Source: a virus. Taken from it: 64,000 nt of DNA. The notes under the pieces are model-generated. The model did not search any database. It was not told where the DNA came from and was given only the letters and a program-made list of their open reading frames with translations. Every line of letters begins with the position of its first letter. Within the stretch, counting starts at the first letter, position 1. Position numbers and translations under genes: made by a program. This document shows, in pieces, positions 2,161 through 39,681 of the stretch. The stretch lies in IMG/VR virus record IMGVR_UViG_3300005841_000001, positions 1 through 64,000 of that record; one strand, written 5' to 3'.

Positions 2161-2465
2161 CGGAACAGAGCAGGGATCCCCAGCACGATGCATTCGCCAA
2201 GGCGGACGAATCGGACTGGGCGAGGCAAGCCGAATTGCTCGAAAGCGCCGTGGTGCACGAGCCTGGCGACCCGGACGCAGCGCCGATCCGGACGCCGGAG
2301 GAGTGGGACGACGACGAATGGGACAGCGAACGTCAACCGCCCAAGACGGTGCGCGAGGCCACCGGCGCGCTCGCGCAGCGGGTCGCCACGCCCGAAGCGC
2401 CCGACACGACGACGCTCGACTACGAGTTCGTCAAGCTCACGCCCGAGCAGCGAGGTGACGCATGA
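2157..2465 (+). CDS. small acidic hypothetical protein
   Basis: A 102-residue protein beginning at GTG inside the previous stop. It is very acidic around residues 45-60 (run of Asp/Glu with Trp), probably largely disordered, and has no cysteines or membrane segment. It sits directly upstream of the endolysin and overlaps it by 4 bp (ATGA), so all three genes are likely made from one message. Function unknown. Confidence 0.65.
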   Translation: MTEQSRDPQHDAFAKADESDWARQAELLESAVVHEPGDPDAAPIRTPEEWDDDEWDSERQPPKTVREATGALAQRVATPEAPDTTTLDYEFVKLTPEQRGDA

Positions 2466-6492: not shown

Positions 6493-6496
6493 CGGG

Positions 6497-6901
6497 GTGC
6501 AGCCCATCGCGCACAAGCACTGGCGGGCCCTGAGTCAGGGCCTTACCGCGCTTCACATGGCGGTCGCTATCGTGCATGTGTTCCCCCGTTTGGTCTATGG
6601 GAGCAAGCCCACAACCGGAACCGTGGTCGTCTACATCGGCACCCTCGGTCCGGTGTGGGTGATCCTTTTCGGCGCGACCGGCCTCGCCCTGGCTGTGAGC
6701 CTGCACCGGCGACGCGGTCGACATTTGGCCCACTTGGCGGCGGCCGCCCTGTGGGTGCTGTACACCTCGGCGCTCGGGATCGGGGCATGGGCCACCGGCG
6801 GACCCATCCTCTTCCCGATCGTGGCGGCCTCGGTCGTGTACGTGCACACCAAGCTCGCGGCGGGTTACGAGTACGAAGCGAGCAAGGAGGCGCGGAGGTG
6901 A
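6497..6901 (+). CDS. membrane protein with about four transmembrane segments
   Basis: A 134-residue protein starting at GTG, 4 nt after the previous stop. Hydrophobic stretches at about residues 18-33, 43-67, 78-100 and 102-118 suggest four helices, with a basic loop (HRRRGRHLAH) between the second and third. It overlaps the next gene by 4 bp (GTGA). Probably part of the lysis or envelope cassette; not otherwise recognised. Confidence 0.6.
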   Translation: MQPIAHKHWRALSQGLTALHMAVAIVHVFPRLVYGSKPTTGTVVVYIGTLGPVWVILFGATGLALAVSLHRRRGRHLAHLAAAALWVLYTSALGIGAWATGGPILFPIVAASVVYVHTKLAAGYEYEASKEARR

Positions 6902-7218
6902 ACGTCCAATCGGTCGGCACCGTCATCTCGAGCTTGATCGCCGTGCTGTTCTTTTTGATCACGCTGGCCGGTTGGCGTTCGCGCCGGGCGAGCCGCGAGG
7001 CCAAGGAACTTCGGCAGGTCAAGGAGATCAACATTGCGGTGATGGACTGGGCCTACCAGACCCGCACGTTGGCAGCGGCGCAAGGCTGGAAGCTCCCCCC
7101 GCTTCCGAAGGAAATGACGATCGAGTACATCGCCGGCAAGGCGGAGGGCGAGGATAATGCCGAACTGATCCAGCTGCTCGAATACCTCAAGGGCATCGCT
7201 GTTAAGGGTGACAAATGA
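6898..7218 (+). CDS. single-span membrane protein
   Basis: A 106-residue protein started at GTG 6898 inside the upstream stop. A hydrophobic segment at about residues 7-24 is followed by a basic stretch (RSRRASREAKELRQ) and a soluble, probably helical C-terminal half. The N-out/C-in anchor layout resembles small phage lysis-accessory proteins, but no motif settles this. It overlaps the next gene by 4 bp. Confidence 0.6.
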   Translation: MNVQSVGTVISSLIAVLFFLITLAGWRSRRASREAKELRQVKEINIAVMDWAYQTRTLAAAQGWKLPPLPKEMTIEYIAGKAEGEDNAELIQLLEYLKGIAVKGDK

Positions 7219-8111
7219 CAACCAATGCGCACGGAGCGCAACCAGAGGCGACGGACCACACGCCGGAGCCACGCAGCCACGCGGGCCGGTTCTTCCGGCG
7301 CATCCCGCCCACGATGTACTTCGGAGCCTGCGGGGTGATCCTGGTCGCCCTGATCCCGCTGTCCATCTGGTTCACCGCGCAGGCCACCCGTCAGGAGACC
7401 CGCGCCGACACCGCCGACAGGAAGTCCGCCGCCGTCGCCTCGGCCGCCGCACCCGTGGTCAGCACAGTCGAGGCGTTATGCCGGGCGAACGCCACCGAGG
7501 CCGAACGGACGCTGGCCGCCGACCTGGCTGCGCGCGGCCAGTGCGAAAGCGCGGCCAAGGCGAAGCAGGTGATCACGGAGGTGCCGGAGCCACCTGCGCA
7601 GGTCAGCGTCACTACCGTGCAGGTGCAGCAGATGATCAACGATCGTCTCGCAGGCCTGCCCAAGCCGCTGACCGTCGAGCAGGTGGCGGCCACGGCCGCG
7701 GACATCTACGCGAAGAACCGGCCGGCCGACGGCAAGGACGCCACACCCGAGATGGTCGCGGCCGCCGTTTCGGCGTTCTGCGCGAACGGCGCGTGCGTGG
7801 GCAAAGACGGCAAGGACGCCCCGCCAGTGCCCGACGAGCAGGTCCTGAAGCAGGTCGCCGCCTACTGCAACTCGCGTGAGGACAAGTGCGTCGGCGGGCG
7901 CGGTCCGCAGGGCCCGCAAGGTGTGAGCTTCCAACGCCAGTACTTCGCCCGAGACGGCTCCGGGGTGTGCTTCTCGTTCGTCGAGAGCTACGACCCGGCC
8001 ACCAACGGCACCAGCACGGCCTCGAGCCGAGCCGGCGATGCCGCGTGCGCCGAGCCGGCGCCGGCGACCTCGGCCAGCGCCACGCCGGGCGGGCTCCTGC
8101 CCACCGGTTGA
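7215..8111 (+). CDS. membrane-anchored protein with collagen-like segment
   Basis: A 298-residue protein. A single transmembrane helix (about residues 35-55) follows a basic N-terminus; the rest is an Ala/Thr-rich, probably extracytoplasmic stalk with several cysteines, a GKDGKD segment and a short collagen-like run (GRGPQGPQG, about residue 235). It ends in a Pro/Ala/Ser-rich tail. The layout suggests a cell-surface or spanin-like accessory of lysis; this is inference from topology and position. Confidence 0.6.
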   Translation: MTTNAHGAQPEATDHTPEPRSHAGRFFRRIPPTMYFGACGVILVALIPLSIWFTAQATRQETRADTADRKSAAVASAAAPVVSTVEALCRANATEAERTLAADLAARGQCESAAKAKQVITEVPEPPAQVSVTTVQVQQMINDRLAGLPKPLTVEQVAATAADIYAKNRPADGKDATPEMVAAAVSAFCANGACVGKDGKDAPPVPDEQVLKQVAAYCNSREDKCVGGRGPQGPQGVSFQRQYFARDGSGVCFSFVESYDPATNGTSTASSRAGDAACAEPAPATSASATPGGLLPTG

Positions 8112-8698: not shown

Positions 8699-9141
8699 TG
8701 TCCACCCCCGTGACGTGCGCAGACACACCCCGGATGGGAGAGGTCGGGCACGAACACGGGGTCATGAAGGTGGTCAAGCAGCTGCTTGATGTGCTCGTTG
8801 TTGGTGAACCAGCCGACCAGCGCACCGGCGGCGGCCCAACGACGAAGTCGGCCCAGCTGCGGGCCGGTCGGTCGCTTGCCGGGTTGCTTGGCCTCGAGCT
8901 TGACGGCACGACCGTCCACACAGGCGTCGAGGTCGGGTTCGCCGACGTTGCCGAACTGTCCACCGTGGACCTTGTGCGCGTAGCCGCGCTTCAGCGAGCA
9001 GAGGTAGAGCTCGCCTTCTTTCACGATCTCGGCCTCGGGCTTCCGGCGCGGGGCGCCGGCGCGCGCCGGCGTGGCAGCGCGACGGCTGAATGGAGCGTCT
9101 TCCACGAGTGCAGACGTGGCGTGATGGACCACGGTCGTCAT
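8695..9141 (-). CDS. VRR-NUC domain nuclease
   Basis: A 148-residue protein. Residues 65-100 carry the VRR-NUC signature: GEPDLDA (D70), then KLEAK (E83, K85) and a conserved Gln (Q95) in PTGPQLGRLRRWAAAGA, i.e. the PD-(D/E)XK core of stand-alone phage VRR-NUC nucleases. Such enzymes act on branched or nicked DNA in replication and recombination. It sits immediately after a UvrD-like helicase and a Cas4-like nuclease gene, which supports a joint role in processing replication intermediates. Confidence 0.85.
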   Translation of the reverse strand: MTTVVHHATSALVEDAPFSRRAATPARAGAPRRKPEAEIVKEGELYLCSLKRGYAHKVHGGQFGNVGEPDLDACVDGRAVKLEAKQPGKRPTGPQLGRLRRWAAAGALVGWFTNNEHIKQLLDHLHDPVFVPDLSHPGCVCARHGGGQ

Positions 9142-10862
9142 TCCGGCGGCACCTCCAAGTCGGGCGGCAGGAGATCACCGCGTTCGACGTACTGCGGGTT
9201 CGCAGTCTGAAGCAACCGTAACTCTCGGTACGAACGGGTCATAGCGACGTAGAACAACCTGATCAATTCGTCACGTCCCGCAGCGCTCTCAGCAGCGGCG
9301 CGAGCGGCCGCGCCGGAGATGTCGGGGGCGACATACACGGTGCCCGACTGACCACCCTTCGTACTATGAATGGTGCCGACGGTGAGCCGAGGCGTCTGCT
9401 GGATCGCGGCCGGGCCGTGCGCCCGGGCGACCTCGATCGGGTACAACGCGGCCTTCTGCTTGGCCGCGAGCAGGCACTGCGCGAGCCAGTCAGGATCCGG
9501 GGCAGTGGCCCAGTCGAACGCGTCCCCGTCGACGAAGAGTCGACGCACTTCGTCCTCGGGTACCTCGGTGTGCGGATCGAGCAGCTTGATCAGCTTTTTG
9601 GCTCCGGGGCGCATGCCGGCCGGGCCGAGTTTCACCAGCTCGGACCAGTACTGGATATCCTCGCCGGTCCACATGCGACCGCCGTGGTCCATAAGGGACT
9701 CGTCCATGATCAGGTATCGGAACACGCGCTCGGCGGTCGCGACCCCTGCCGTCACCCCGCCGAGTGGATTCCAGCGCGCCTCGTTCGGGCGGTACGGGTT
9801 GTGGAACGGCACCCCACGCTGACGGAGGCCGGTAAGCAGCGGCTCGAGCATGTAGTTGCACGAGGCGACCACCATCACCGTCTCGTTCGGATCCGAGTCC
9901 AGATCGGACTCGATACGGTCGATCAGGGCTGCGCTGTTCAGGGTCTCCGGCACCTTGTAGGCCGCGCCCATGACCATCTTCCCCGCGGCGTCGACGCGCG
10001 GACGGTACTCCTTTTCGCGGCGGTGCGAGCCCAGCCGAATGATCCACCGCTGCGCGACACGGCGCACAGCCTCGGGAACGCGGTAGGACTGACCGAGGAT
10101 CTCGTCTCGGACCTCGCCGTTCGGGCCCGCGGTCAAATCGAGGATCGGTGCCGGGTTGCCGCCACGCCAGGCGTTGATCGCCTGGTCGTCGTCGAGGCCG
10201 AAGAACAGGTGATCGGTCTGCTGACCCCACGCGGTCACCAGCGCCGATTCGAGCGGGGTCTGGTCCTGCGCCTCGTCGGCGATGAAGAACCGCGGGTTGC
10301 CCGGCGCGGGCTCGCCGTCGCGTGCGGCCTCCAGCGCATCCTCGACCATGTCGGTGTAATCCACCGCCCCTACGTGCGTCTTCCACTGCTCCCACCGGCG
10401 GGCGAACTGCCGGACGTTCTCCGGCCATTCGTCTTGCGGGGTCAGGGTGGCACGCAGCTTGTCGAGCGAAGAGATCAGCTCGTCGCCGGTGACGGCGTTG
10501 CGCGGATTCCCGTTGGCTCCGCTGTCCCCGCTAGCGCGCCGGTTGTCCGGGGTGATCGTCCACTCGGGGTGGTCTTCGTTCCAGGAGACGATCGTCTTCG
10601 CATCCAGGGCGACGGCGCCGTGCCCGATGGCCCGGAAGGCGTGGCTGTGCAGCGTCCGCACGGCGTGCTTGGGCGGCCGGATGCCGTCGTTGGTGAACCG
10701 GCCGGCGATCTCCTCGGCCGCGGTGGTCGAGAAAGAGGCGACCGAGAGGCAGTCAGGCCCATAAGTCATGATCAAGTTGCGCACCAACTCGGCGAGCTTG
10801 GTGGTCTTGCCGGTTCCGGGCGGTCCGAAGATCCGGGTGGCGTTGCCGTTGAACTCGGTCAC
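9138..10862 (-). CDS. UvrD/Rep-like superfamily 1 DNA helicase
   Basis: A 574-residue helicase. GTG 10862 is chosen because it overlaps the upstream stop (GTGA) and puts the Walker A motif (GPPGTGKTT, residues 13-21) at the usual N-terminal place. Motif II is DEAQDQTP; the C-terminal part has the SF1 motif V region TVGTIHSTKGGQ and motif VI YVAMTRSYREL. It should unwind DNA 3'-5' using ATP. It is coupled to the VRR-NUC gene downstream and close to a Cas4-like nuclease gene, an arrangement like a reduced recombination/repair module. Confidence 0.9.
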   Translation of the reverse strand: MTEFNGNATRIFGPPGTGKTTKLAELVRNLIMTYGPDCLSVASFSTTAAEEIAGRFTNDGIRPPKHAVRTLHSHAFRAIGHGAVALDAKTIVSWNEDHPEWTITPDNRRASGDSGANGNPRNAVTGDELISSLDKLRATLTPQDEWPENVRQFARRWEQWKTHVGAVDYTDMVEDALEAARDGEPAPGNPRFFIADEAQDQTPLESALVTAWGQQTDHLFFGLDDDQAINAWRGGNPAPILDLTAGPNGEVRDEILGQSYRVPEAVRRVAQRWIIRLGSHRREKEYRPRVDAAGKMVMGAAYKVPETLNSAALIDRIESDLDSDPNETVMVVASCNYMLEPLLTGLRQRGVPFHNPYRPNEARWNPLGGVTAGVATAERVFRYLIMDESLMDHGGRMWTGEDIQYWSELVKLGPAGMRPGAKKLIKLLDPHTEVPEDEVRRLFVDGDAFDWATAPDPDWLAQCLLAAKQKAALYPIEVARAHGPAAIQQTPRLTVGTIHSTKGGQSGTVYVAPDISGAAARAAAESAAGRDELIRLFYVAMTRSYRELRLLQTANPQYVERGDLLPPDLEVPPE

Positions 10863-15393: not shown

Positions 15394-16246
15394 ACGACTG
15401 GGGCTTGCTCTTCGCCTTCACCTTCGGCGGCGGCGGAGGTGGCTCCACGAGGGTCGAGGGCGGCTCGACGGGCCACGGCCGCCCGTCGTCGTTCGGCGCC
15501 GCGCACGAGCCACACAGGCGCTCGGAATCGACGATCCAGCGGCCCGGCCACAGCCATTCCGAGCAGCCGCGGCAACGCTCCCAGCCCCACACCTCGGCGT
15601 TGCCGCCGCCGACCTTGCCCAGCGGCCGGAACAGCGGCGGACCGAACGGGGGTGCGTAGACGCCCCAGTCGGCCACGATCGCCGTGTCCGGACCCACGAG
15701 AGCGCCGCCGAGCAGGATCACGCCATCATCGCGATCCTGCTCGGCGAGCGAGCGCTGGTGCCCCATGATTTTTTCGCCACGGTCCCGGCTCTGGCACGGC
15801 ACATGCTTGCGGCCCACCGTCGATTCGGTGACCACCGTCCACGGAACATCCGGACCGAGACCGGGTCGCCACCACGGGTTCGCCTGCACCGCGGCCGGGA
15901 TCCTCGGCGCGGTCGCCGAGACGATCGGCTTCGGCGCATCGGAGGTGCTCGAGCGGCGAGCGTAAGCGCTACGCCCCTTCCTGACGGACCGCTGTGGCGC
16001 CGGGCGAGCGCCGATCTCGGCCTCATCGAGGGTGGCCAGCATCGCGTCCCAGTGCTCAAACAAGCGTGGGACACACGGCTCGTGCACGGGGTGGAAGCAG
16101 TCCTCCCACGGCCAGTAGAGCCCGGTCGAGTGACCACACATCACGCAGCCGGAAAGGACGCCGTGTCGCAGCGAGACCACCACAGACTGCCGCGACACGG
16201 CGAGCTCGGAACCCCGCACCGGCGGGGGCGGCGGGATGAGTTTCAT
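15386..16246 (-). CDS. hypothetical protein with zinc-ribbon-like cysteine pairs
   Basis: A 286-residue protein coupled to the primase gene by a 4-bp overlap. CVMCGHSTGLYW near residue 34 and HEPC, then CRGCSEW and CGSC near the end, look like two half-sites for zinc. Pro-rich at both ends (IPPPPPV, EPPPPPPK). It may be a replication accessory because it follows the prim-pol gene directly, but there is no functional motif. Confidence 0.6.
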   Translation of the reverse strand: MKLIPPPPPVRGSELAVSRQSVVVSLRHGVLSGCVMCGHSTGLYWPWEDCFHPVHEPCVPRLFEHWDAMLATLDEAEIGARPAPQRSVRKGRSAYARRSSTSDAPKPIVSATAPRIPAAVQANPWWRPGLGPDVPWTVVTESTVGRKHVPCQSRDRGEKIMGHQRSLAEQDRDDGVILLGGALVGPDTAIVADWGVYAPPFGPPLFRPLGKVGGGNAEVWGWERCRGCSEWLWPGRWIVDSERLCGSCAAPNDDGRPWPVEPPSTLVEPPPPPPKVKAKSKPQSFD

Positions 16247-18537
16247 GCTCCCTCATCTCGGACGGCTCGGAGACGGTCGGAACGCGACAACTGGACGTCA
16301 CGAACGGCGTCCACGATGAAGCCCCACTCCTCCGCCGTGAACTCCGGTTCGTCGATTTCGTACCAGGTGCCCCGCACCTGCTTGCCAGTGGCGCTCTTCA
16401 TCCGGATGCGGTCCGGCTTGACGTACAGGTACCGCATCGAAGACTGCGCGGCCTTGCCCGACGGGCCACCCGGGCGGGTGGCCACGTAGCCGAGAAACGG
16501 CTTGAGCGAGAACCAGATCGACGGCGTGCCGGTCGTTCCCCAGTTCTGGTGATCACGGAGGAACGGTTTGTGCATGTCGACCGCTTCGACTTCCAGCGGC
16601 GTCGGAGGGTGATCGAGCAGGTAGTCCAGCAGCCACCCGTGCATCGAGGTAGCCATGTCCGAGCCGGTCGAGTCGCGCAGCCAGTACGGGACGAGCCGGT
16701 CGATCAGCGCGGCCCATCGCTCCTTGTCGCCAACCGGAGCGGCCGGGATCAGGCAGTCGACCGTCAGGGCCGTGCGGAACCCCCGCGGGGTCGAGAAGTC
16801 ACCGCGCTTGTGCCACTCGGAAAACAGCGGCCGGCCGACGCGGTACTGCTCGGGCCGGTTGGCGTCCGGCCAGTCGTAGTCCACCGGGATTTTCAGCCCG
16901 ATGCGACCACGCGCCGCATCGCCCTGGTCGGCCCGCTCGAGCCGCCACACTTCGAAGCCCTCGGCGCGAAACGCCTCGGGCAGCAGCAAGTCAGAGAGCG
17001 CCTCCATGTGCGCCCGCAGACCATCGGACCGGGTGCCCCAAACCTCTTCGTCCGCCGTCGGATCAGGCACCGGCGGCAGGACCTTGGGGACCTCGGTCGC
17101 CGGCGGTTGCCGATCCTCATCGGCGGCCTGATGTTCGTTCTCCACCTGGAACGTCGCGGCGAGCAGCCGCTGCTCCGGAGACATGACATCGTCGGCGTGG
17201 TCCAGGATCGCGTCGACGTAGTCGGGCATCGCGTCAGGCTCAAGCCCCGGGCCGGGACCCGGGTCGTCGTCCTCCGGCGGTTCGGGGGGCAGGAAGTCGA
17301 CCGGGTTCGGCTCGGGCTCGACGTGCACGGTGGCGCCGAGCTTGCCCTTGGCGGCCGAGGCGAAAGACGCCTCGCGGTCCAGCTCGAACTCGGCGAGCTT
17401 GGTCTTGCGCTTGCTCTGTTGCGCGACGAATCCGATGGTGCGGATGATGTAGTCGACTCGTTGCCGAGGGTCGACCTTGTCTACTTTCTGTCCACACCGC
17501 AGCCGGCGGCACATCAGCGCCTCGACCTGGTGATCCACGCTGAACCCGTAGTCAGCCAGGATCCGCACCAGCGCCGCGTCGTAGCTGGACTGGTCGTTTG
17601 CCAGGTCCGCGCGGTTGCCCGCCCACAGCAAGGCCAGCGGGCCAGCCGAGCCGTCGATCTCCAGCACGACCGAGAGCCACTCGGGCGTGTAGTCGCGCGA
17701 GCGGTAGTCCGCGGAGTTGACCCGGGCCCAGACCCGGTTCAGGTCAAGGTCGCCGAACTCGGCCGTCTTCACTCCGACCGTGCCAGCCGCGTAGCTGTCG
17801 AGCACCTCGGGGTCAGCGAATCGCTCGATCAGGTCGTCGAGCTCGTAGCGTCGGGCGTTGTCAAGCTCGACGATCTCGGCGCGCCGCGGGTCGTCGGGAA
17901 CCTTCAGGTTGAGCGTTCCCGGCACGCGCAGCACGCGCGCGAGGTCGAACACCGAGTCGAGCTTCCACTGCCCGAGCCGCTCCGCGTGGTAGCGCAGCGT
18001 CGAGTTCCAGTCTTGCGAGATGCGGGCGAGCTTCTCCTGCTCGGCCTCGACATCCTCGTCCGGCTCGATGATGAATGGCTCGTGGAACAGCCACCACGCC
18101 TGAATGCCGTGGCCCGTACGGATGATGGCCGTAGGGACCAGGCCCGGCGCGTTGGCCAGTGCCACTGCCGCTTCGTAATCGGGGGGGTAGGGCTTGCTCG
18201 TGTGCGGTCCACCCGCGAAGTCGATGTCCGCCCACAACCCGGGGAGTGCAACGACCTCGTGTGCCTTGGCCCGCTTGAACCTTTCTTTCGCGGACCGGGT
18301 CATCCCCGGTCCAATGTAGATTCCTGTGGGCCCGCCCGGCGTGCCCTGAGCTTCGGCAAGATCGGTGATGGCGGAAACAATGGCGCCGAGGTCATCACCT
18401 CGGCGCCACCGTGTCTCTTTGCCGGGCAGCGACCAGGCAGCGGCTACGTACAGATCCGCCAGGTTTTCGTCGCCGGTGCCGTCCGGGCCTCCGAACAGTG
18501 CCGAGCAGAACCGCCGGATCTGCTCGGCGTCGATCAT
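16243..18537 (-). CDS. primase-polymerase (archaeo-eukaryotic primase superfamily)
   Basis: A 764-residue protein; ATG 18537 overlaps the upstream stop (ATGA). LWADIDFAGGPH (D104, D106) and RTGHGIQAWW (H143) are the D-x-D and s-x-H motifs of bifunctional prim-pol domains, and RVLRVPGTLNLK matches their conserved R-x-PGT-x-N-x-K segment. Residues 300-450 include a CRRLRCG pair and an acidic Pro-rich linker; the C-terminal 300 residues are unrecognised and lack a clear Walker A, so no helicase is fused. It likely primes phage DNA synthesis. Confidence 0.88.
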   Translation of the reverse strand: MIDAEQIRRFCSALFGGPDGTGDENLADLYVAAAWSLPGKETRWRRGDDLGAIVSAITDLAEAQGTPGGPTGIYIGPGMTRSAKERFKRAKAHEVVALPGLWADIDFAGGPHTSKPYPPDYEAAVALANAPGLVPTAIIRTGHGIQAWWLFHEPFIIEPDEDVEAEQEKLARISQDWNSTLRYHAERLGQWKLDSVFDLARVLRVPGTLNLKVPDDPRRAEIVELDNARRYELDDLIERFADPEVLDSYAAGTVGVKTAEFGDLDLNRVWARVNSADYRSRDYTPEWLSVVLEIDGSAGPLALLWAGNRADLANDQSSYDAALVRILADYGFSVDHQVEALMCRRLRCGQKVDKVDPRQRVDYIIRTIGFVAQQSKRKTKLAEFELDREASFASAAKGKLGATVHVEPEPNPVDFLPPEPPEDDDPGPGPGLEPDAMPDYVDAILDHADDVMSPEQRLLAATFQVENEHQAADEDRQPPATEVPKVLPPVPDPTADEEVWGTRSDGLRAHMEALSDLLLPEAFRAEGFEVWRLERADQGDAARGRIGLKIPVDYDWPDANRPEQYRVGRPLFSEWHKRGDFSTPRGFRTALTVDCLIPAAPVGDKERWAALIDRLVPYWLRDSTGSDMATSMHGWLLDYLLDHPPTPLEVEAVDMHKPFLRDHQNWGTTGTPSIWFSLKPFLGYVATRPGGPSGKAAQSSMRYLYVKPDRIRMKSATGKQVRGTWYEIDEPEFTAEEWGFIVDAVRDVQLSRSDRLRAVRDEGA

Positions 18538-21379: not shown

Positions 21380-21630
21380 CACACGGACACCTTGACCAGG
21401 AAGCGACGCCGCCACACATCGTGTGAGAGGACCTCGAGGTCGCCACCGCCGTAGCTGATCAGCCACTGACCGGGGACCAGGTAGAACCTCTGCCCGCCCA
21501 CGGTCACGTTGACCTGGCCGGACGGCCGGCGCTCGACGTCGCCGCCGAGGGTGGTCACGAAGACCGCGAACGCCTCGACGTTGTCGACCTGCTCGCCGGT
21601 GATGGTGTCGGCCATTTCGAGGACCTTCAC
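21379..21630 (-). CDS. small beta-rich hypothetical protein
   Basis: An 83-residue protein; GTG 21630 overlaps the stop of the secreted nuclease gene. The sequence alternates in beta-strand fashion (GQVNVTVGGQRFYLVPGQWLI) and carries no known motif. Coupled to the next gene by TGATG. Confidence 0.55.
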   Translation of the reverse strand: MKVLEMADTITGEQVDNVEAFAVFVTTLGGDVERRPSGQVNVTVGGQRFYLVPGQWLISYGGGDLEVLSHDVWRRRFLVKVSV

Positions 21631-22331
21631 GGGCACCCCCGCAGGGTGTCGGCCAGCGCGGTACGGGTGGCGGCCAGCGCGGGCAGCTCGTAGGCCTTGA
21701 GGATGGTCACGTACATCCGGGCGTACTCGCAGCGGGCGGGCGGCGCCGGCATCCAGCGGTCGGGGGTCTTGTCGCCCTTGACGTGCTGGTTGGTCTGGTC
21801 GTCGACGGCCAGCAGGTTGCGGGGGTCGTTGGCGAGCCGGATGCGGGGGCGCGCCTGCCAGGCGTAGGCGCCGGAGACCCAGGCGACCTTGAGCGGGACG
21901 ACGTGATCGACGTCGATCTGGCCGCGGCCGACGACGTGCTTGCCGGCGTAGGGCTCGGTCATGTCGATGGCGATGACGGTGCAGCCGTTGGACGTCTGCA
22001 CGGATCCGCCGGAGCGACGGGCGTCGCGGGCGAGGATGTCGTCTCGGGTGTCGCAGCCGTTGCCGTCGGTGTCGAGCCAGGGGGTGCCGAAGGCGTCCCG
22101 GTCGTAACGCGGCGGCGTGGCCGGGCGGCCGAGGGCCGGCGCGGCGCGGTCGAGAACGGTGATGTAGGGGATTTCCGCACGGGCGGCGGCGGCGGACAGC
22201 GTGCCGGCCGGCGGTTCGAGGGCGGTCGGGCCGGGTTCGTCGGCGTTGGCGCGCACGGCGAACCCGGCGATGACGGCCGCCGCGATCAAGACGCCGCCGA
22301 TGATCCACGACGGCTTGTCCTTGATGGGCAT
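21627..22331 (-). CDS. secreted or membrane-anchored HNH nuclease (DUF1524/GmrSD-C-like)
   Basis: A 234-residue protein. Residues 1-30 are a signal peptide or membrane anchor (basic start, then IIGGVLIAAAVIAGFAV). The nuclease core reads GQIDVDHVVPL (D142, H143), then NDPRNLLAV (N172), QTNQHVKGDKTPDRWMP: the ββα-metal HNH arrangement of the DUF1524 family found in actinobacterial secreted nucleases. It would act outside the membrane, perhaps on extracellular or incoming DNA. ATG start; promoter at 22365-22393. Confidence 0.85.
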   Translation of the reverse strand: MPIKDKPSWIIGGVLIAAAVIAGFAVRANADEPGPTALEPPAGTLSAAAARAEIPYITVLDRAAPALGRPATPPRYDRDAFGTPWLDTDGNGCDTRDDILARDARRSGGSVQTSNGCTVIAIDMTEPYAGKHVVGRGQIDVDHVVPLKVAWVSGAYAWQARPRIRLANDPRNLLAVDDQTNQHVKGDKTPDRWMPAPPARCEYARMYVTILKAYELPALAATRTALADTLRGCP

Positions 22332-22364: not shown

Positions 22365-22393
22365 ATCCTAACCGAGCTGTCTCGGCTAGTCAA
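22365..22393 (-). promoter_or_regulatory. promoter-operator cassette with leader
   Basis: Read leftward: TTGACT, spacer AGCCGAGACAGCTCGGT, TAGGAT; leader of about 30 nt to ATG 22331. The -10 differs from the usual TAGTCT. The stop TAG of the upstream exonuclease gene (22386-22388) is formed by TTGACTAG. Confidence 0.75.
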
Positions 22394-23198
22394 CGAGCGA
22401 GCCGACCGGGACCAGCGGGAAGAACGGCGCCTCGGCGCGGCAGGACGCGGCCGCTTCCGGATCGCCGGCGCGGGCGAAGTAGTCGGCCAGGCCGATCTTC
22501 TGTGTGTGGTACCACTGCCGCTGGTAGGTCTGGAGCTGCTCCAGCGTCATATCGGCGAGCCTTTGCCGGTTCCGTCGCACAGTGGCGTCGTCGCCCGGCT
22601 GCTCGAACGGCAGGCCGCGGGCCACCGCGATCGTCGCGATGACGTCGTTGGTGGCGTTGTGGGCGTCCTTCAGTTCGAAGCCGTAGCGCGCGGCGGTGGG
22701 CGTGAGCTTCCGCATGCCCTTGCCCTTGACCCACTTGTTGACGGCCTTGTCGATGGTCAGCGGGCACAGGACCGGCAAGTCTGGCTTCCGCTCGATCAGC
22801 GGACGGACGCCGTACCGGCGTTGCTCGCGGTCGGACATCGACAGGTCGAACGGCGCATTAAAGATCACCAGCGGGATCCCGGGCTGCAACATCTCGTCGA
22901 GGGTGTCGGTAATCTCGCCGATCGCCTCGGCCGGATCCTGCCCGTGCTCGCGCAGCTCCTCGTTCGTGATCCCGTGGATGTCGACCACCTCGGGCGCGAG
23001 CTCGACGCCGGGGTTGATCAGCCACTCGAGGATCTTCGTTTCGAAGCCGGGTTCGGAGTAAGCCACCGTTGCGCTGACGATTCGATCCTTGTCGCGCTTG
23101 ACGCCCGAGGTTTCGACGTCGTAGATGACGAATGGTCGCTGAAACCACGGGACGGTGTCGGCGGTGGCGTGCGCCCGCCACGGGTAGGTCACGGTCAT
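22386..23198 (-). CDS. DnaQ-like DEDDh 3'-5' exonuclease
   Basis: A 270-residue protein; ATG 23198 is chosen because GAGGAG lies about 10 nt upstream, although the frame stays open to 23276. VIYDVETSG (D27, E29), NAPFDL (D118) and HNATNDV (H180, D185) give the full DEDDh set of the DnaQ proofreading family. The C-terminal 80 residues resemble the tail of phage exonucleases that follow this core (RQWYHTQKIGLADYF). It probably acts in phage DNA replication or repair. Confidence 0.88.
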   Translation of the reverse strand: MTVTYPWRAHATADTVPWFQRPFVIYDVETSGVKRDKDRIVSATVAYSEPGFETKILEWLINPGVELAPEVVDIHGITNEELREHGQDPAEAIGEITDTLDEMLQPGIPLVIFNAPFDLSMSDREQRRYGVRPLIERKPDLPVLCPLTIDKAVNKWVKGKGMRKLTPTAARYGFELKDAHNATNDVIATIAVARGLPFEQPGDDATVRRNRQRLADMTLEQLQTYQRQWYHTQKIGLADYFARAGDPEAAASCRAEAPFFPLVPVGSLVD

Positions 23199-23280
23199 GA
23201 GCTGGAGCTCCTCGCGAGTGATGGTCGTGGGAGAGCCCAGCATAGGGAGAAACACCGACAGAACTCGGAGAGACACGACG

Positions 23281-23348: not shown

Positions 23349-23657
23349 CTAGCCGACGGAAGCCGGTTCGTCTTCCCCCGGTTTCGGCGCCTTGTCCGTC
23401 ACCCGGATGAAGTAGCGCTTCTCGACCTCGACGTAGGTAGCCACCAGGAAGATGCCAGGACGCACCAACACGTCGGCTTCCGTGGCTTCCGTGACGTGGC
23501 CCGCCGAGGCCGCGGCCTGTACTGTCACAGACTCGGTGATCTTGATGCGCAGACGGTCGTCCGGCTCCACGCTCGCGTCGATGCCCTTGCCGCCGAGCCA
23601 CTGCACCACGGTCGGACCGTTGGTCCTCGACAGCGGCATGTATTCCACATTGGTCAC
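23349..23657 (-). CDS. hypothetical protein
   Basis: A 102-residue protein starting at GTG that shares one base with the stop of the helicase gene (TAGTG). Beta-rich with an acidic Pro-containing end. It is followed by a hairpin terminator, so it closes the operon that begins at 28985. Function unknown. Confidence 0.6.
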   Translation of the reverse strand: MTNVEYMPLSRTNGPTVVQWLGGKGIDASVEPDDRLRIKITESVTVQAAASAGHVTEATEADVLVRPGIFLVATYVEVEKRYFIRVTDKAPKPGEDEPASVG

Positions 23658-26005
23658 TAGAAGCCCTCCAAATCGAACTGCTGAAGCGTGGCGGCGTCCG
23701 CGACCACGCGTCCCTCCGCGTCGTGCTCACGGGGAGCCACGCGAGGAGCCATGACGTTATGCCCGAATTCGTCGATCGGCAGCACCACCGCGCCACCAGA
23801 GCGTTGACCCATGTCGTCCGGCGCCGGCGGCATCGGGTCGACGATGGTCGGATCGACCCCGAACGCGCGCGGGTTCAAGCCGCGACGCTCACACGACACC
23901 GCAACCAGGTTGCGACGCTGCACGATGGTGTCGCGCACGTCGAGGTCGACGGTGCCCGAGACGTACAGGTGGATGAAGACCACCGGCCGGGTCTGCCCGT
24001 GCCGATGCTGACGCGCCCGGGCCTGGTCGTAGTCGCCGACGCTCGGGCCCTTTGAGTACCAGATCCCGTACCGGGCGCGGGTGAGGTCGACGCCGGTGCC
24101 GCCGGCGGAGATCTGGACCGCGCAGATGTCGATGTCCGGATTGAGCTCCGAGGTCTCGGTGAGCCCGTCGGAGCGTCGGCCGGAGATCTCGCCGTAGCGC
24201 AGACCCGCCTTCGCGGCGAGCTGTCGGATGATCTCGATCTCGTCCTTGAAGTGCGCGTAGACGATCACCGGTTCGGGCCCGCCCGGATGACCAGGCACGC
24301 AACCGATTTCGTCCAGGATCCCGCCGGTGATGGCGTGCGTGCCGTCGCCGCGGGCCTGCGGGGCGAACTCGACGATCTCGTTTTCCTTGGCCCAGGACAC
24401 CCGGTGCTTGCCGCCGGACTCGCCCTCGCTGACCACGAAGTCGTCGTCGGGGACGGTGCCACCGGTGAACTGCATGAGCCGGATGTTGCGTGAGAGCACG
24501 TTCTTCGGGGTGAGCGTCTCGTCTCCGTCCGACCAGTCGGAGGCGAAACCGGAGAGGTCCGCCCACATCTCCTTGTCCAACGATGCGTACTCGCGCGCGG
24601 CCTTCGCCTCGAGCTCGACGAACCGTTCGACGTCGGTCAGTGGCGGCAAGTCGAGCTTGATCGTCGGCCGGTACATGATCGAGTGCACTTTTTCGGCGAA
24701 CTCGGTTCGCTTTTCCGAGAGGATTTTCACCGGCCAGCTCCGGGCCCTGCGGCCGGGGATGACGTTCTCGTCCTTTTCGGTGGCCTCGAACACGTACTGG
24801 GACTTGAACACCGTCCACAATGAACCGAAGATGCCGGGATCCAGCGCGCGGTAGACGCCGAAGATGTCCCACGGGTATTGCGGCATCGGCGTACCGGACA
24901 GCCCGATCCGGTTACGGGTGAACCCGACCCACTCCGCGAGGTTCGTGCTCACCGTTCCAGTTGGCGACTTCGCGCGATGGACCTCGTCGTAGATGCCGAG
25001 GTCGAGCATCTCCGGCGGTCGCCATGTCGAGGCCGGCGCGTGCGCCAACATCTCGTAGTTCCACACCGCGAAATGCGCCTGCGCACCACAGGTGCAGTCG
25101 AACAGGGTGGCCTCGGTCTCGTGCACCCGGTCCACGATGGACAGGTCCTGGTAACGGAAGCCCTTGCGCTTGGGGGGTCGTTTGCCGTCGACGATGTGCC
25201 ATGACCGCGCCGACCATTTCGCCACCTCGCGCGGCCACACCCCGCGCACCTTGTTGGGGCAGATGATGATGCCGCGTTTGACCTCTATCAGGTTGGCCGC
25301 CGCGATCGCCGTCGCAGTCTTGCCGCCGCCCATCGTGAAGCCCAGCAGGCTCGCAGCCGCGTGCGTGGTGAAGTCCACCCCGCGCAGCTGATAGTCGCGC
25401 AACGTCGGGTTCAGGACGAGCCGGCGCTGCTCGAGCTCGGGTAGCGGATGCGTGGGGTCGAGCCGCTCGTAAGCAGCGATGCGGGCCATGTGCTGATCGG
25501 CCAGCTCGCGCACCCGCGAGGAAGCATTGACCGGCATGCCGTGCAACAGTCCCAGCAACCCGGCCGCGCTCGCCGGCGACGCCGGGATCGACCAGGTCGC
25601 CCGCGGCCGGGTCTTGGTGGCCGGGTGGAACTGCGCGTAGAGCCCGAGCTTCAGCGCCTCGTTCAGCGACATGGGTGAGTTCCGGATGTCGATCCGGCCG
25701 TCCGGGCGCAGCGCGAGTTCGATCGGGCGATCGGCACGGTGCTGCTCGGCGGCCGGCACGACGGGCTCGGGCTGCCTGCGTCCGGGCAGAATGAGCCCCA
25801 TCCGCGCCAGGCCGGCCTCGTTGCGGGCGAGGATCCGCCACGCTTGGCGACCCTCGTCGGAGGTCAGCCCGCGACCGGACTTCACGTGGGCAGCCAGCAT
25901 GGCGGCCATGGGGCGCTCGGTGAACCCGATGATGTTCGCGTCGAACGCCTTGACCAGCGTCGCCTCGGTCTCGCGCAGCAGCTCGAGCGGGGTGGGCCCG
26001 GTCAT
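23657..26005 (-). CDS. SNF2-like superfamily 2 helicase
   Basis: A 782-residue protein. About 200 N-terminal residues are unrecognised. The helicase core begins at LRDYQLRGVDF (Q motif-like), has Walker A MGGGKT (about 225-230), motif II DEVH (340-343), motif III LSGTP, motif V ISAGGTGVDLT and motif VI QARARQHRHGQ, the SNF2/Rad54 arrangement. A CTCG motif near residue 305 may be structural. It probably remodels or translocates on DNA during replication or recombination. GTGA/ATGA couplings link it to genes on both sides. Confidence 0.9.
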   Translation of the reverse strand: MTGPTPLELLRETEATLVKAFDANIIGFTERPMAAMLAAHVKSGRGLTSDEGRQAWRILARNEAGLARMGLILPGRRQPEPVVPAAEQHRADRPIELALRPDGRIDIRNSPMSLNEALKLGLYAQFHPATKTRPRATWSIPASPASAAGLLGLLHGMPVNASSRVRELADQHMARIAAYERLDPTHPLPELEQRRLVLNPTLRDYQLRGVDFTTHAAASLLGFTMGGGKTATAIAAANLIEVKRGIIICPNKVRGVWPREVAKWSARSWHIVDGKRPPKRKGFRYQDLSIVDRVHETEATLFDCTCGAQAHFAVWNYEMLAHAPASTWRPPEMLDLGIYDEVHRAKSPTGTVSTNLAEWVGFTRNRIGLSGTPMPQYPWDIFGVYRALDPGIFGSLWTVFKSQYVFEATEKDENVIPGRRARSWPVKILSEKRTEFAEKVHSIMYRPTIKLDLPPLTDVERFVELEAKAAREYASLDKEMWADLSGFASDWSDGDETLTPKNVLSRNIRLMQFTGGTVPDDDFVVSEGESGGKHRVSWAKENEIVEFAPQARGDGTHAITGGILDEIGCVPGHPGGPEPVIVYAHFKDEIEIIRQLAAKAGLRYGEISGRRSDGLTETSELNPDIDICAVQISAGGTGVDLTRARYGIWYSKGPSVGDYDQARARQHRHGQTRPVVFIHLYVSGTVDLDVRDTIVQRRNLVAVSCERRGLNPRAFGVDPTIVDPMPPAPDDMGQRSGGAVVLPIDEFGHNVMAPRVAPREHDAEGRVVADAATLQQFDLEGF

Positions 26006-28991: not shown

Positions 28992-29020
28992 AGACTAGCC
29001 GAGCAGACCCGGCGAGTCAA
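28992..29020 (-). promoter_or_regulatory. promoter-operator cassette, leaderless type
   Basis: Read leftward: TTGACT, spacer CGCCGGGTCTGCTCGGC (17 nt), TAGTCT, 6 nt, ATG 28985. The upstream half of the spacer is CGCCGG instead of CCGAG, as in the cassettes at 12687 and 20149. Confidence 0.85.
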
Positions 29021-29027
29021 CGAGGGT

Positions 29028-29774
29028 CTAGAAGCACAGCGCGCGCAAGGTGGCCAGCATCATCACGAACTGGACATTCTGGCCATTGGCGTTCTTGTGG
29101 ATCCGGTCCGGCATGTCTTCCTGGTTCAGATCATCACCGCGGAAGCCCCACTCCTCGGCCAAGTAGACAGCCCCGTTCGCGGTCGCCAACGCGCGGATCG
29201 CATCCCGGTACGGCAGCTGACTGCCCCGAGTGGACGTGAGCGAGGTGTTGTAGATCCACGGCATGTGCACCAGGACGATCAACGAGTCCGGCGACAGCGT
29301 GTGGACTCGGTCGATGATCTGCTGGTACTGCACCGAAAACTGCGCGACCGGGATGTTGCCGGCCCAGTCGTTCGTGCCCCACCCCATGAGCACCACGCTC
29401 GGGTGGTTGACGGTGAATTCGATGTGGCCGCTGTATTTCGCGCCGGCCACGTAGTCCGCGGTCGCCGAACCGCCGATCGCTCCGCCGATCCACACCTGCG
29501 CGTTCGGTGCGCCGTCGGAGCGCAGGGCCTCGCCAAGTAGTGCGGTCGATCGACGGCTCAGGTCGCTGACGGAATCCCCGAGGGTCAGCGAGTCGCCCAA
29601 CGCATCGACGGTCGGCGAGCCGCCGGCGAGCGCCACGCACCAGGCGTCTCGAGGGGAGGCGAACGTGGCGGCGGTGGTGGATGTGGCGACCGACGTGGTA
29701 GTGGCCGCCGAGGGCGAGCAGAGTAGCGCGGCCGCCGCGACGAACATCGCGACATAGGACATGATGCGTTTCAT
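29028..29774 (-). CDS. exported SGNH-family esterase/hydrolase
   Basis: A 248-residue protein starting at ATG 29774 (TGATG with the fibre gene). Residues 1-24 are a classic signal peptide (MKR, then hydrophobic, ending PSAA). The SGNH blocks are ALGDSLTLGDS (S62), GGAIGGSA, GWGTNDW (N135) and MPDRIHKNANG (D223, H226). It probably deacylates a host surface polymer or lipid. Its coupling to a fibre gene suggests a tail-associated depolymerase-like activity, though a signal peptide is unusual for a virion protein. Confidence 0.85.
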   Translation of the reverse strand: MKRIMSYVAMFVAAAALLCSPSAATTTSVATSTTAATFASPRDAWCVALAGGSPTVDALGDSLTLGDSVSDLSRRSTALLGEALRSDGAPNAQVWIGGAIGGSATADYVAGAKYSGHIEFTVNHPSVVLMGWGTNDWAGNIPVAQFSVQYQQIIDRVHTLSPDSLIVLVHMPWIYNTSLTSTRGSQLPYRDAIRALATANGAVYLAEEWGFRGDDLNQEDMPDRIHKNANGQNVQFVMMLATLRALCF

Positions 29775-31270
29775 CAGGGCCCCTTGATGCATTCGATGAA
29801 CAGTTTCGGCAGGTGGGTACCGGCGACATACGCCTGCGTGAGATTGCCGGCCGAACTGTCAGTGGCGTTGAACGTGGCCACTACAGTGTAAGTGGCAGTG
29901 GAGGGCGCAACGAACTCGCTACACAGTGAGACCGGCGTGTAGTAGGCACTGGACAAGCCGCCACGCTCGGTGCCGTCGAAAACCGTTCCGGTCACGTCCG
30001 TACTTGAGGAGGTGGCCTTGTATCGAAGCTTGATCGCGAACGGATTGGTGATCAGGTTCGCATTGGTATTCGCATTGGAACTGAAAAGACTGGCGCCCCA
30101 CGTCGCTTTGTACCGTCGTCCAGACACTGCCGAGAAAGTAACGAAGCAGCCGACTTTCTCGGTGGTGCCGGAGCCGGTGACGGCCGCCGTCGGGAAGTGC
30201 TCGCCGACGTAGCCGACGGCGTCGAGGCCGTTGAGCGTGGTTTGCAGGCTGGTGACGTCGGCGATGGCGTGCGTGTGCACCGACGCCGCCTTGCCGGCCA
30301 GCGCCGTCGTCGCCGCGGTCGAGAGCGGCTTCGCCGCGTCCGAGGTGTTGTCGACGCTGCCCAGGCCGACGTCGGACTTGGTCAGCGTCACCGCGCCCGT
30401 GCGGCCGGCCACCGAGGTCACCGCGTCCGTCGGGGTGAGCACCTGTGCCCAGTTCGCCAGCGTCGAGGCTGGCTCGGCGGCGAGGATGAACGCCGCGCCG
30501 AGGTCGGTCCGGTTGCACCAGTCACCCCGCTGACCGACCAGCCCGAGCATCGCCGCCTGCGAACCGACAGCACCCAGGTAGTCCGAGATCGCGATGCTGG
30601 GCAGCTGGGAGGCCGGGATCAGGCCGCCCGAGTCGAGCGAGGCGACGCCGTTGGAGACGCCCACCAGCGCGGTCGCGACGTACCCGGTGAGTGGGTCCAC
30701 CCCGCCGGGGGCGTGCCGGGTGGCGTGGTTGGGTGGGTGGTTCTCCAGCGTCACCACCCGGGCGTCAACGGCGTCGAGTTCATCCTGCGGGGCGTAGCCG
30801 TGGCCGGTGGCGTCAATGTCCGAAGCGGTGAGCGGCACATTGCCGTCGACATCCGGGCCAACGCCGGCCACGGTCTTGATCTCGAACGCCGAGGACGGCA
30901 CCGGGTCGACCTTGGTGACCTCACGCAGGACCACCGCACCCGGCAGCGACGGCAGCTTGATCGAGAAGTCTTCGCGGACGAATGCGTCGATGCCCAGGTC
31001 CCCGATCGAGCCGGGCGGGCCCACCTGGATCGTGACTTCGTAGGTCCAGCCGACCGGCGTCACGCCGGGGCCGTCGTTGGCCAGCAGCTCGACCGACAGG
31101 TTGCCGGCGGAGGACAGGTGCGCGACCACCGGCGCGCCGGCCGGCACCATCGCGGCGTTGTGCTTCACCGTCACCGACGGCCGGAAGATCACTCGACCGC
31201 CGAGCGGGTTGCCGGCGCCGTCCTCGAAATGGTCGGTGACCGTGACGCGAGTCGGTGGATCAAGTGGCAT
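29774..31270 (-). CDS. tail fibre protein on the leftward strand
   Basis: A 498-residue protein. The N-terminal 120 residues (PPTRVTVTDHFEDGAGNPLGG on) are typical of phage minor tail or fibre starts. A middle section has HATRHAPGGVDPLTG and SVAGRTGAVTLTKSDVGLGS, the widespread fibre-shaft motif; the C-terminus is beta-rich. It is encoded on the early strand, away from the other structural genes. A box TAGCCT lies 6 nt before the ATG, so it may be leaderless, but no good -35 is seen. Confidence 0.82.
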   Translation of the reverse strand: MPLDPPTRVTVTDHFEDGAGNPLGGRVIFRPSVTVKHNAAMVPAGAPVVAHLSSAGNLSVELLANDGPGVTPVGWTYEVTIQVGPPGSIGDLGIDAFVREDFSIKLPSLPGAVVLREVTKVDPVPSSAFEIKTVAGVGPDVDGNVPLTASDIDATGHGYAPQDELDAVDARVVTLENHPPNHATRHAPGGVDPLTGYVATALVGVSNGVASLDSGGLIPASQLPSIAISDYLGAVGSQAAMLGLVGQRGDWCNRTDLGAAFILAAEPASTLANWAQVLTPTDAVTSVAGRTGAVTLTKSDVGLGSVDNTSDAAKPLSTAATTALAGKAASVHTHAIADVTSLQTTLNGLDAVGYVGEHFPTAAVTGSGTTEKVGCFVTFSAVSGRRYKATWGASLFSSNANTNANLITNPFAIKLRYKATSSSTDVTGTVFDGTERGGLSSAYYTPVSLCSEFVAPSTATYTVVATFNATDSSAGNLTQAYVAGTHLPKLFIECIKGP

Positions 31271-34066: not shown

Positions 34067-35331
34067 GCCCGCTCCAGCCAATACGTCGCCGGCTCGCACA
34101 CCGTGCAACGACGCAGCACGTGGTCCGTCGTGACGCCCTGCTCGACAATCTGGTGATCGGCCACGTGGTGGAACCGGCAGTCCGTCGTCAGCTGGAAGTC
34201 GCGGTCCAGGACCGGGACGAAGTCCCGCGGCATCTCCGGCTTCCCGACCTCGACGATCGCCTGCTCGTAGCCGGACTGCTTCGCGATCCGGCGGCGGCCG
34301 TACTCCGAGCGCACCAGACGCTCGCCGTAGACCGCGCCTTCCTCCGAGATCGTGTCGAACTGCCGCGCCAGCCGCAGGATGTCGTCCTTGAGGGTCGCCG
34401 GGAAGACGTGGTCGTCCAGGCCCTCGCCCCAGTTGCGCACCCGCGCGGCCATGTCGCCCGGGCCGGACGGCCCGTGATCCCACTCGGCCGCCGACGACGA
34501 CAGCTCACGCCACTGCAACTTCAGGTTCCAGTACCGCTGCCCTTCGAGCAGTACCCGGTCGCGGTAGCCGGCCAGGGCCTTGTTCCAGGTCTCGCGCATC
34601 CACGCCGGCAGCTCGGGGTGCAGCGGCCCCGGCTCCTCGACCGCGTCCGGGTGCATCGCCGAGACGGACTCGCCGAGGGGGAGCGGGCCGCCGGTCACCA
34701 CGCCGCTCGGCTGCTTCGCGCCCGGCGCCGGTAGGTACTTGGTACCAGCCGGCAGGACCAACGTCGCCCGCTGGTCGCGAGCGCTACGGAACCGCTTCGC
34801 GAGCTCGGCGAGCTGCTCCGGCGTCAACGTGCCCGAGACCTTCAGCACGCCGCCCGGCAGCGTGTAGATCGTGGTGGTCGTCGACGCTGCGGGACCGCGG
34901 CGTGCCGCGAGGGCGTCTTTGCGGGTCCAGTGCCGGAACAACGACCGGCCGAGGAACCACAGCACCGCCACCGTCATGACGATCATGAAGAACCCGGCGA
35001 CCGCCGTCGGGCCGCCCGCGATCATCACCGGCGACAAAGAGATCACGATCGCAAGGAACGGGTGCTCGCGCAGCCAGCCCCACGTCGCCTCGAGCGGGTT
35101 ACGACGTATCGAACGCTGCTGCTTCTTCTTCAGCTGTGCGATCTCGAAGTGCCGTTCGTCCACCTTGGACCCCCACAACTTGATCTCTTCCGACGTGCGC
35201 GATGCGTAGAGCACCGCAGTGTCCATCTCCAGCAGCTTCTCGGCCTCGACCAGCGCCTTAGCGAGATCCGCCTGATGGTTTTCCAGCTGCTTCAGCTGCG
35301 CCACCAGATCGTGCAGGCTGTGACGGCTCAC
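34063..35331 (-). CDS. membrane protein with coiled-coil N-terminus
   Basis: A 422-residue protein. Residues 1-75 are a coiled coil (LHDLVAQLKQLENHQADLAK on), followed by two transmembrane helices (about 90-130) and a large soluble domain of unknown type ending in CTVCEPATYWLERA. GTG start inside the upstream stop. A phage protein acting at the host membrane is likely; there is no enzyme motif. Confidence 0.65.
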   Translation of the reverse strand: MSRHSLHDLVAQLKQLENHQADLAKALVEAEKLLEMDTAVLYASRTSEEIKLWGSKVDERHFEIAQLKKKQQRSIRRNPLEATWGWLREHPFLAIVISLSPVMIAGGPTAVAGFFMIVMTVAVLWFLGRSLFRHWTRKDALAARRGPAASTTTTIYTLPGGVLKVSGTLTPEQLAELAKRFRSARDQRATLVLPAGTKYLPAPGAKQPSGVVTGGPLPLGESVSAMHPDAVEEPGPLHPELPAWMRETWNKALAGYRDRVLLEGQRYWNLKLQWRELSSSAAEWDHGPSGPGDMAARVRNWGEGLDDHVFPATLKDDILRLARQFDTISEEGAVYGERLVRSEYGRRRIAKQSGYEQAIVEVGKPEMPRDFVPVLDRDFQLTTDCRFHHVADHQIVEQGVTTDHVLRRCTVCEPATYWLERA

Positions 35332-35822
35332 GACCGGAACCGCCGTTCGACCTCATCGGTGATCTGGCTCGCGTCGGCGCGCTCGGCCGTGAACTCCCAG
35401 TGCGACAGCACCAGCAGCAGCGCGATCGTGGCGAGGCCGGCGAACAGCGGCCACCATCCCCCGTGCAGCTCACGAAGCGCGTTCCAAGCGGCAGCGACCG
35501 GGTAGGACGCCAGACCGATGCCGAACCACACCGGGTGCAGCGGCTTGCGCCAGACCGCCAACATCCGAACCGTGCCCGGACCCTGCCGCCACCCGAGCCA
35601 CACCCGGCGCAGCTTGAACTCGAAAAACGCGTAGACCCGGCGCCCGGGACCCATCGCAAGACCCATGATCACCAGCGTCATGGGCCACTCGACCAGGGCG
35701 TAGAAGACGTCCCCGACGTACAGGCCGAAGATCGACGGCAACAGGACGAGCAGCAGGCAGACGGCCGCGACGATGCGGATCGGCCAGCGCAAACGGCTGG
35801 GCTCGAGGATGACGCGGAACAT
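35328..35822 (-). CDS. multi-span membrane protein
   Basis: A 164-residue protein with an ATG start and GGGAGGG upstream. Hydrophobic helices at about residues 14-35, 40-58, 98-115 and 124-141. First gene after the cassette at 35855-35883 and coupled to the 422-residue membrane protein, so the two may form a complex. Function unknown. Confidence 0.65.
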   Translation of the reverse strand: MFRVILEPSRLRWPIRIVAAVCLLLVLLPSIFGLYVGDVFYALVEWPMTLVIMGLAMGPGRRVYAFFEFKLRRVWLGWRQGPGTVRMLAVWRKPLHPVWFGIGLASYPVAAAWNALRELHGGWWPLFAGLATIALLLVLSHWEFTAERADASQITDEVERRFRS

Positions 35823-35854: not shown

Positions 35855-35883
35855 AGACTAGCCGAGTTCGGTCGGCTTTTCAA
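35855..35883 (-). promoter_or_regulatory. promoter-operator cassette with leader
   Basis: Read leftward: TTGAAA, spacer AGCCGACCGAACTCGGC (17 nt), TAGTCT, then about 32 nt of leader to ATG 35822. The stop codon of the upstream HTH gene is the TAG that begins the -10 box (35858-35860). Confidence 0.85.
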
Positions 35884-39652: not shown

Positions 39653-39681
39653 AGACTAGCCGAGCGAACTCGGCTAGTCAA
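39653..39681 (-). promoter_or_regulatory. promoter-operator cassette, leaderless type
   Basis: Read leftward: TTGACT, spacer AGCCGAGTTCGCTCGGC, TAGTCT, 6 nt, ATG 39646. The palindrome CCGAG-N4-CTCGG is complete. The gene upstream ends only 7 bp before the -35 box. Confidence 0.9.

Follow-up and report, generated by a model that had tools for sequence, protein, structure and literature searches.

A tail-fibre gene coupled to the gene of a predicted exported SGNH esterase in the leftward replication block of a contractile-tail actinobacterial phage

A tail-fibre gene, gp45, and the gene of an SGNH/GDSL esterase, gp44, are translationally coupled within the leftward block of a contractile-tail phage. 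The pair suggests, without proof, that the phage alters the surface of a cell that it has already infected. Our leading but tentative reading, to which we give somewhat less than an even chance, is that gp44 is exported and, as an esterase, strips acyl groups from an envelope glycan, so that re-adsorption falls. In this scheme, gp45 would be a true tail fibre of the virion, its gene displaced from the tail module, and gp44 would be a non-virion protein, exported by means of its signal peptide and probably locked by one disulfide. The ester-linked groups that the enzyme would remove from the infected cell are most likely the acyl groups, O-acetyl or another kind, of a glycan in the cell envelope. 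The infected cell and the lysis debris would then no longer bind phage carrying gp45, resulting in less superinfection and less loss of progeny. The fibre architecture, the SGNH residues, the signal-peptide features, the coupling of the two genes and the stand-alone relatives of the esterase are read directly from the sequence, and we infer export, the disulfide, the substrate, the timing and the effect on adsorption. The features of the pair are:

29774-31270, minus strand: tail-fibre gene gp45, 498 aa, with PHROG tail families and fibre homology
gp45 residues ~6-120: N-terminal attachment-type domain, matching Raleighvirus tail-fibre N-termini
gp45 residues ~185-350: tail-fibre core with HATRHAPGG-type and GRTGAVTL-type motifs
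gp45 residues ~350-498: all-beta C-terminal head, from a structure model
29028-29774, minus strand: SGNH/GDSL esterase gene gp44, 248 aa, predicted exported, PF13472 at 5e-17
29703-29774, minus strand: predicted signal peptide of gp44, residues 1-24, from hydrophobicity and sequence features only
29637-29639, minus strand: codon of gp44 Cys46, conserved in 3/3 compact relatives
29034-29036, minus strand: codon of gp44 Cys247, conserved in 3/3 compact relatives

The window, namely the whole stretch of 64,000 nucleotides that was analysed, belongs to a viral contig of 101,657 bases with ends identical over 120 bases. A second contig, whose DNA is >99.9% identical in the compared part, spans the joint between the last gene and the first gene; the phage molecule is accordingly either circular or circularly permuted. 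L013 and L048 represent one and the same phage (>99.9% identical). The sheath protein is 41-46% identical to those of Gordonia phages DalanDe, Chidiebere and GMA6 and of Brevibacterium phage Cantare, and the host is taken to be an actinobacterium. Structural genes run rightward from ~70 kb, through the contig end and into 1-8 kb, and the leftward block spans 36.5 to 8.4 kb. The sequence-only reading had placed the pair next to replication genes, on the opposite strand from the other fibre genes and 21-25 kb away from them. Both statements hold, as do the positions given for the two frames: in the rightward tail block, the closest fibre-like gene ends at 5782, ~23 kb from the pair, and the leftward block contains four replication genes. 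These neighbours and the lysis cassette are:

23657-26005, leftward block: SNF2-type helicase
22386-23243, leftward block: exonuclease
16243-18537, leftward block: primase/polymerase
9138-10862, leftward block: UvrD-type helicase
21627-22331, minus strand: GmrSD_C (HNH-type) nuclease with an N-terminal hydrophobic segment, domain E 9.3e-9
2462-3388: amidase of the lysis cassette
6157-8111: membrane proteins of the lysis cassette

No integrase or lysogeny module was identified among the phage genes scanned, which were part of the gene set, so that long-term exclusion of the kind seen in lysogens is not indicated. The early region also encodes a YdjM-type inner-membrane protein (PF04307, 9.6e-18; 54390-55214, minus strand), conserved at 35% in contig G005. 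A separate observation concerns a 2957-aa open reading frame at contig positions 74670-83543 (L011:11670-20000 and L012:1-1543). Its N-terminal part is similar to the capsid maturation protease found in related phages, and its C-terminus contains a HEYGH motif, which we take to be zinc-protease-like.

The product of gp45, a full-length protein, is best read, by homology, as a virion fibre. It matches 27 PHROG families at E<=0.1, and many of these are families of tail or minor-tail proteins; the top family (2.7e-37) has unknown function and the top named tail family scores 1.5e-24. Homology to annotated tail fibres is found at both the N-terminus and the core. The Streptomyces phages ToastyFinz and Darolandstone have tail fibres whose N-termini are 34-35% identical to that of gp45 (E 9e-4 and 1e-2). 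The core, whose two motifs are presumably typical of fibres, is similar to many actinophage minor tail proteins and is 50-51% identical over ~110 aa to Chidiebere gp29 and ChisanaKitsune gp25. The Pfam phage tail repeat PTR, which occurs in many fibres and not in all, scores 24.5 bits in gp45, below the cut-off of 27, and 88.5 in the homologous Chidiebere gp29. The C-terminal 158 residues were modelled with low confidence (pLDDT 61.9) as an all-beta, TNF-like jelly roll. The 23 Foldseek matches of this model at E<=0.001 (best 1.6e-4) are to TNF-like jelly rolls and to a baseplate protein of a phage. The head would thus look like that of a receptor-binding fibre, as far as a low-confidence model can indicate. 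No phmmer match to gp45 was found among solved structures.

The C-terminus of gp45 is 29-34% identical to the last tail gene of two siphophage contigs, G007 and G008, and neither the gp45 C-terminus nor the G007 partner protein has a match in INPHARED. The partner proteins score weakly to DUF7298, a family that we take to be widespread, so this coincidence of heads may mean little; a shared receptor or host as its explanation was given no weight.

The esterase was assigned by Pfam Lipase_GDSL_2 with 63.4 bits against a cut-off of 32.9, and the genome search recovered it too. The start codon of gp44 overlaps the stop codon of gp45 by one base (TGATG), an arrangement of translational coupling. 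This start is the second ATG of the frame, with AAGGGG just upstream and MKR directly before the hydrophobic segment. Because of the overlap and the upstream AAGGGG, the start was set at 29774 and not at 29792, and the second ATG is likely the true one. The catalytic residues are Ser62, Asn135, Asp223 and His226, within the segments GDS62L, GGAIGG, GTN135D and D223RIH226, to which we assign the Ser GDS, Gly, Asn GxND and Asp-x-x-His blocks, respectively. They are aligned in all six SGNH proteins compared.

The N-terminus of gp44 carries the features of a signal peptide, MKRIMSYVAMFVAAAALLCSPSAA, and no later transmembrane segment follows. Its KD value over 12 residues is 2.68, compared with at most 1.32 in six virion-type SGNH proteins. 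By a simple test, a strongly hydrophobic N-terminus is present in 12 of 130 phage proteins of at least 60 aa, mostly short membrane proteins; among phage proteins longer than 200 aa it is found only in gp14 of the lysis region, gp37 and gp44. The chain consists of the predicted signal peptide and the SGNH domain only, with no virion-attachment region. Mature gp44 would contain exactly two cysteines, Cys46 and Cys247, and both close relatives keep these two and have no others, a pattern consistent with an exported protein that carries a disulfide. A location of gp44 at or beyond the cell membrane is a prediction only; such a location is a feature of surface-acting exclusion proteins, though not of all. 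Neither gp44 nor gp45 matched a PADLOC defence model at E<=0.01. The GmrSD_C nuclease is putatively a second exported-looking enzyme of the leftward block and was counted in favour of the export reading of gp44. It has no relative among the 11 records searched, in a search without a positive control. As a side observation, an exported nuclease of this kind could attack incoming DNA.

The only close relatives of gp44 that were found, with 53% and 49% identity, are encoded by two viral contigs of 42 and 44 kb, the related siphophages G007 and G008. Their genes stand alone, without an adjacent fibre gene, and each has a signal peptide. Therefore, an enzyme of the gp44 type works, or at least persists, without a fibre. 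Each siphophage contig has 20 predicted tRNA genes in the stretch that was read, and the SGNH gene is inserted into these arrays (L002:8737-12032 and L024:8647-11918). Beyond these, three viral contigs (L025-L027) match weakly at 29%, and the only INPHARED match is the tail-spike/esterase of Abidatro at 26%, in two records of one phage. A profile scan built from three gp44-type sequences added nothing new. A bacterial or plasmid origin of gp44 found no support: there is no plasmid match, and GTDB gave one weak match, to an Acidobacteria MAG at 29%, in a search that relied on exact short peptides and may have missed distant bacterial relatives.

The main rival is a virion location of both proteins, in which the fibre and a receptor-deacylating enzyme would act together at adsorption and the hydrophobic stretch of gp44 would be either a remnant or a part of the particle that acts on membranes. 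This rival draws on the relatives. Six complete related myophages, DalanDe, Chidiebere, ChisanaKitsune, ScarletRaider, GMA6 and Cantare, were searched for PF13472. The domain is beside or within a fibre gene in the first four and absent from GMA6 and Cantare. In all four carriers the SGNH gene is located shortly upstream of the capsid protease gene, and it follows the portal gene in DalanDe and Chidiebere, the two in which the preceding stretch was read. The fibre just before the SGNH gene of Chidiebere and ChisanaKitsune is the one that shares ~110 residues with gp45 at 50-51% identity, and gp45 has no match at E<=0.001 in the other four myophage records. ScarletRaider has two consecutive SGNH genes, and the N-terminus encoded by the first resembles that of the Chidiebere fibre. 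The myophage SGNH proteins, 730-946 aa long, look like virion parts. The presence of the pair across related myophages indicates that the association of fibre and SGNH protein is old or recurrent in this phage group, and its usual form looks like a virion module. Because the pair of the relatives is virion-type and ScarletRaider has two SGNH-bearing genes, gp44 too may plausibly have had a virion role in its ancestry. The coupling of gp45 to gp44 also speaks for a virion location, as does the frequent occurrence in Klebsiella prophages of SGNH receptor-binding enzymes, of which two were shown to be active esterases (PMC13123978).

Against this rival, gp44 is compact, lacks a virion-attachment domain and is nearest to stand-alone genes with a signal peptide. 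The myophage proteins have no signal peptide and neither has the 432-aa tail spike of Abidatro, so that the feature is present in 3/3 compact proteins (gp44 included) and 0/6 virion-type ones. The earlier remarks that the esterase has a signal peptide, as a prediction, and that virion enzymes normally lack one are thus borne out in this comparison. We regard a virion location of both proteins as unlikely, at about one chance in four. The case that the sequence-only reading had named against itself, both proteins being conserved virion parts at this position in all relatives, is borne out only in part: an SGNH protein accompanies the fibre in four of the six myophages, but at another position and in a virion-type form. 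Hence, a fibre beside an SGNH gene is not itself new for this phage group, and the predicted secreted form of the enzyme and the genome position are distinctive here. Searches of viral contigs with the SNF2 helicase and with the 601-aa protein encoded next to it gave no relative that covers the leftward block, and the SNF2 helicase was not found in 7 records, in a search without a positive control. The sheath relatives L014, L015, L016 and L017 are fragmentary, and no gene of the leftward block was recognised in them (for L015, in the stretch compared). Virion genes outside the structural module also occur in the replication half of two myophages: Chidiebere gp121 (L045:34762-35883) and DalanDe gp105 (L020:31662-32789) match a PHROG head-decoration family, and one of them is annotated as a tail fibre.

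The earlier suggestion that the products act on the surface of the infected cell is retained for the enzyme, gp45 being read as a virion component. For gp44, this action is the better reading because of the exported look that separates the compact from the virion-type proteins and because of the stand-alone relatives, and it is favoured by predicted export together with the missing attachment region. Counted against it are the poor model of gp44, the lack of a Foldseek match and the lack of an early-type promoter directly before the fibre gene.

Next among the rivals is an exported enzyme that weakens the envelope or releases lipid, like lysophospholipase/thioesterase I, and thereby aids lysis or feeds the infection, the fibre being adjacent by accident. 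TesA-type and CrmE10-type profiles score best with gp44, albeit weakly, and these TesA-type matches and the stand-alone relatives both suit this rival. However, gp44 lies outside the lysis cassette and is coupled to the fibre gene. Comparison by VIA-align of the gp44 model, which is poor (pLDDT 50.6), gave SGNH esterases as the highest-Z rows, many of them O-acetylesterases. The model aligns with Ape1 at Z 10.0 (rmsd 3.6, 167 aligned), with sialate O-acetylesterase at Z 8.2-8.3 and with TesA at Z 7.3, all values of a poor model. These rows favour an O-acetylesterase over TesA, although the Z differences are small and the model is poor. Foldseek gave no match to the model at E<=0.001, and phmmer gave none to gp44 among solved structures. 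A role in lysis or lipid release is accordingly given little more than a one-in-five chance.

The timing assigned to gp44 is suggested by its position and by the promoters around it. The genome contains 33 near-palindromic TTGACT-N17-TAGTCT elements with CCGAG....CTCGG in the spacer, and 31 of them lie within 12.6-62.6 kb (12660-62600 in the window), the early region, on both strands. The reversed sequence gave 2 matches above the same score, with a profile trained on the same genome. Among viral contigs, the strict pattern occurs elsewhere only in one of the same phage. Many elements lie exactly 6 bases before an ATG, which suggests that early transcripts are leaderless and that the elements are under one common regulator. 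The leftward block has 8 of these early-type promoter/operator elements between 12.7 and 35.9 kb. Two elements next to the pair and two examples from farther away are:

28992-29020, minus strand: element directly behind the esterase gene, 6 bases before the gp43 ATG
35855-35883, minus strand: first such element upstream of the pair, preceding 35328-35822
39653-39681: example element
59217-59245: example element

The element at 28992-29020 belongs to gp43 and bounds the pair downstream. No early-type element is found between 35855-35883 and the fibre gene, nor directly before gp45. Since the pair sits between elements at 35.86 and 28.99 kb, it is likely to be expressed with the leftward genes, and a separate late promoter is possible. 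The pair does lie inside the leftward block, as the sequence-only reading had it, and the label "early" would follow from position and promoters. A TAGCCT-N6-ATG promoter before the fibre was set aside, having no -35 and having been noticed post hoc.

The earlier idea of a recently acquired module finds no support in composition: the GC contents of the two genes are 0.659 and 0.678, compared with a mean of 0.684 (sd 0.021) for 51 genes of ~200 aa or more, and their codon usage is ordinary for the genome; as judged by composition, recent acquisition was rejected. An accessory host-range cassette without a joint mechanism, as captured cargo tolerated in a gap of the leftward block, is improbable: its relatives do come from different sources, the fibre core from myophages of the group and the esterase from siphophages, but composition and codon usage match the genome, the codons of the two genes overlap, and neither the reading frames nor the active site is disrupted.

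The preferred reading, an exported gp44 acting on the infected cell, can be narrowed to a split of binder and eraser, a version that we consider doubtful, at roughly a quarter. The virion fibre would bind an acylated surface glycan, and the secreted esterase of the same operon would strip the acyl groups from the infected cell and debris, the secreted form having evolved from, or replaced, the virion SGNH enzyme of related myophages. Receptor-destroying enzymes operate in some animal viruses, to which such a split may be likened. If gp44 is exported and alters adsorption, it would be a clear enzymatic means by which actinobacterial phages control superinfection at the cell surface, and the pair would be a natural binder and eraser for finding an unknown receptor. 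The same fibre-plus-SGNH gene pair can have a virion-type form in some phages and an apparently secreted form in another, and the secreted SGNH genes in siphophage tRNA arrays suggest a small family of phage surface-modifying enzymes. Among the papers listed in a literature search of a library with few subscription journals, no title or abstract opening described a secreted SGNH esterase of an actinobacterial phage.

The secreted SGNH genes of G007 and G008 are like gp44 in being compact, in having a signal peptide and both cysteines and in their 49-53% identity, but they have no adjoining fibre and lie between tRNA-Glu and tRNA-Val. The Gordonia pairs Chidiebere gp29-gp30, ChisanaKitsune gp25-gp26 and DalanDe gp24-gp25 share the gene order, fibre followed by SGNH gene, and like gp45-gp44 are located outside the tail module. 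In contrast to gp44, their SGNH proteins have 730-939 aa, a virion-type N-terminus and no signal peptide, and the genes share the strand of the structural genes and precede the capsid protease, whereas gp45-gp44 lies among replication genes. E. coli phage G7C and Klebsiella prophages have SGNH tail fibres with esterase activity, and some of these SGNH genes adjoin a fibre gene (PMC13123978). G7C gp63.1 and the Klebsiella receptor-binding proteins resemble the present pair in the association of an SGNH hydrolase with a tail fibre. However, their enzyme resides in the fibre or a neighbouring protein, whereas gp44 is separate and has a predicted signal peptide; gp44 is kept out of this virion kind because it has no fusion to an attachment region and carries a predicted export signal. 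Receptor modification by the D3 O-acetylase and P22 Gtr is described as superinfection exclusion (PMC11436027), and surface-exposed Ltp lipoproteins are another kind of exclusion (PMC3952083). D3, P22 and Ltp resemble the proposed gp44 in that a phage product at the surface of the infected cell blocks further phages. The D3 and P22 enzymes add groups and Ltp is a surface lipoprotein, whereas gp44, for which exclusion is only proposed, would remove groups.
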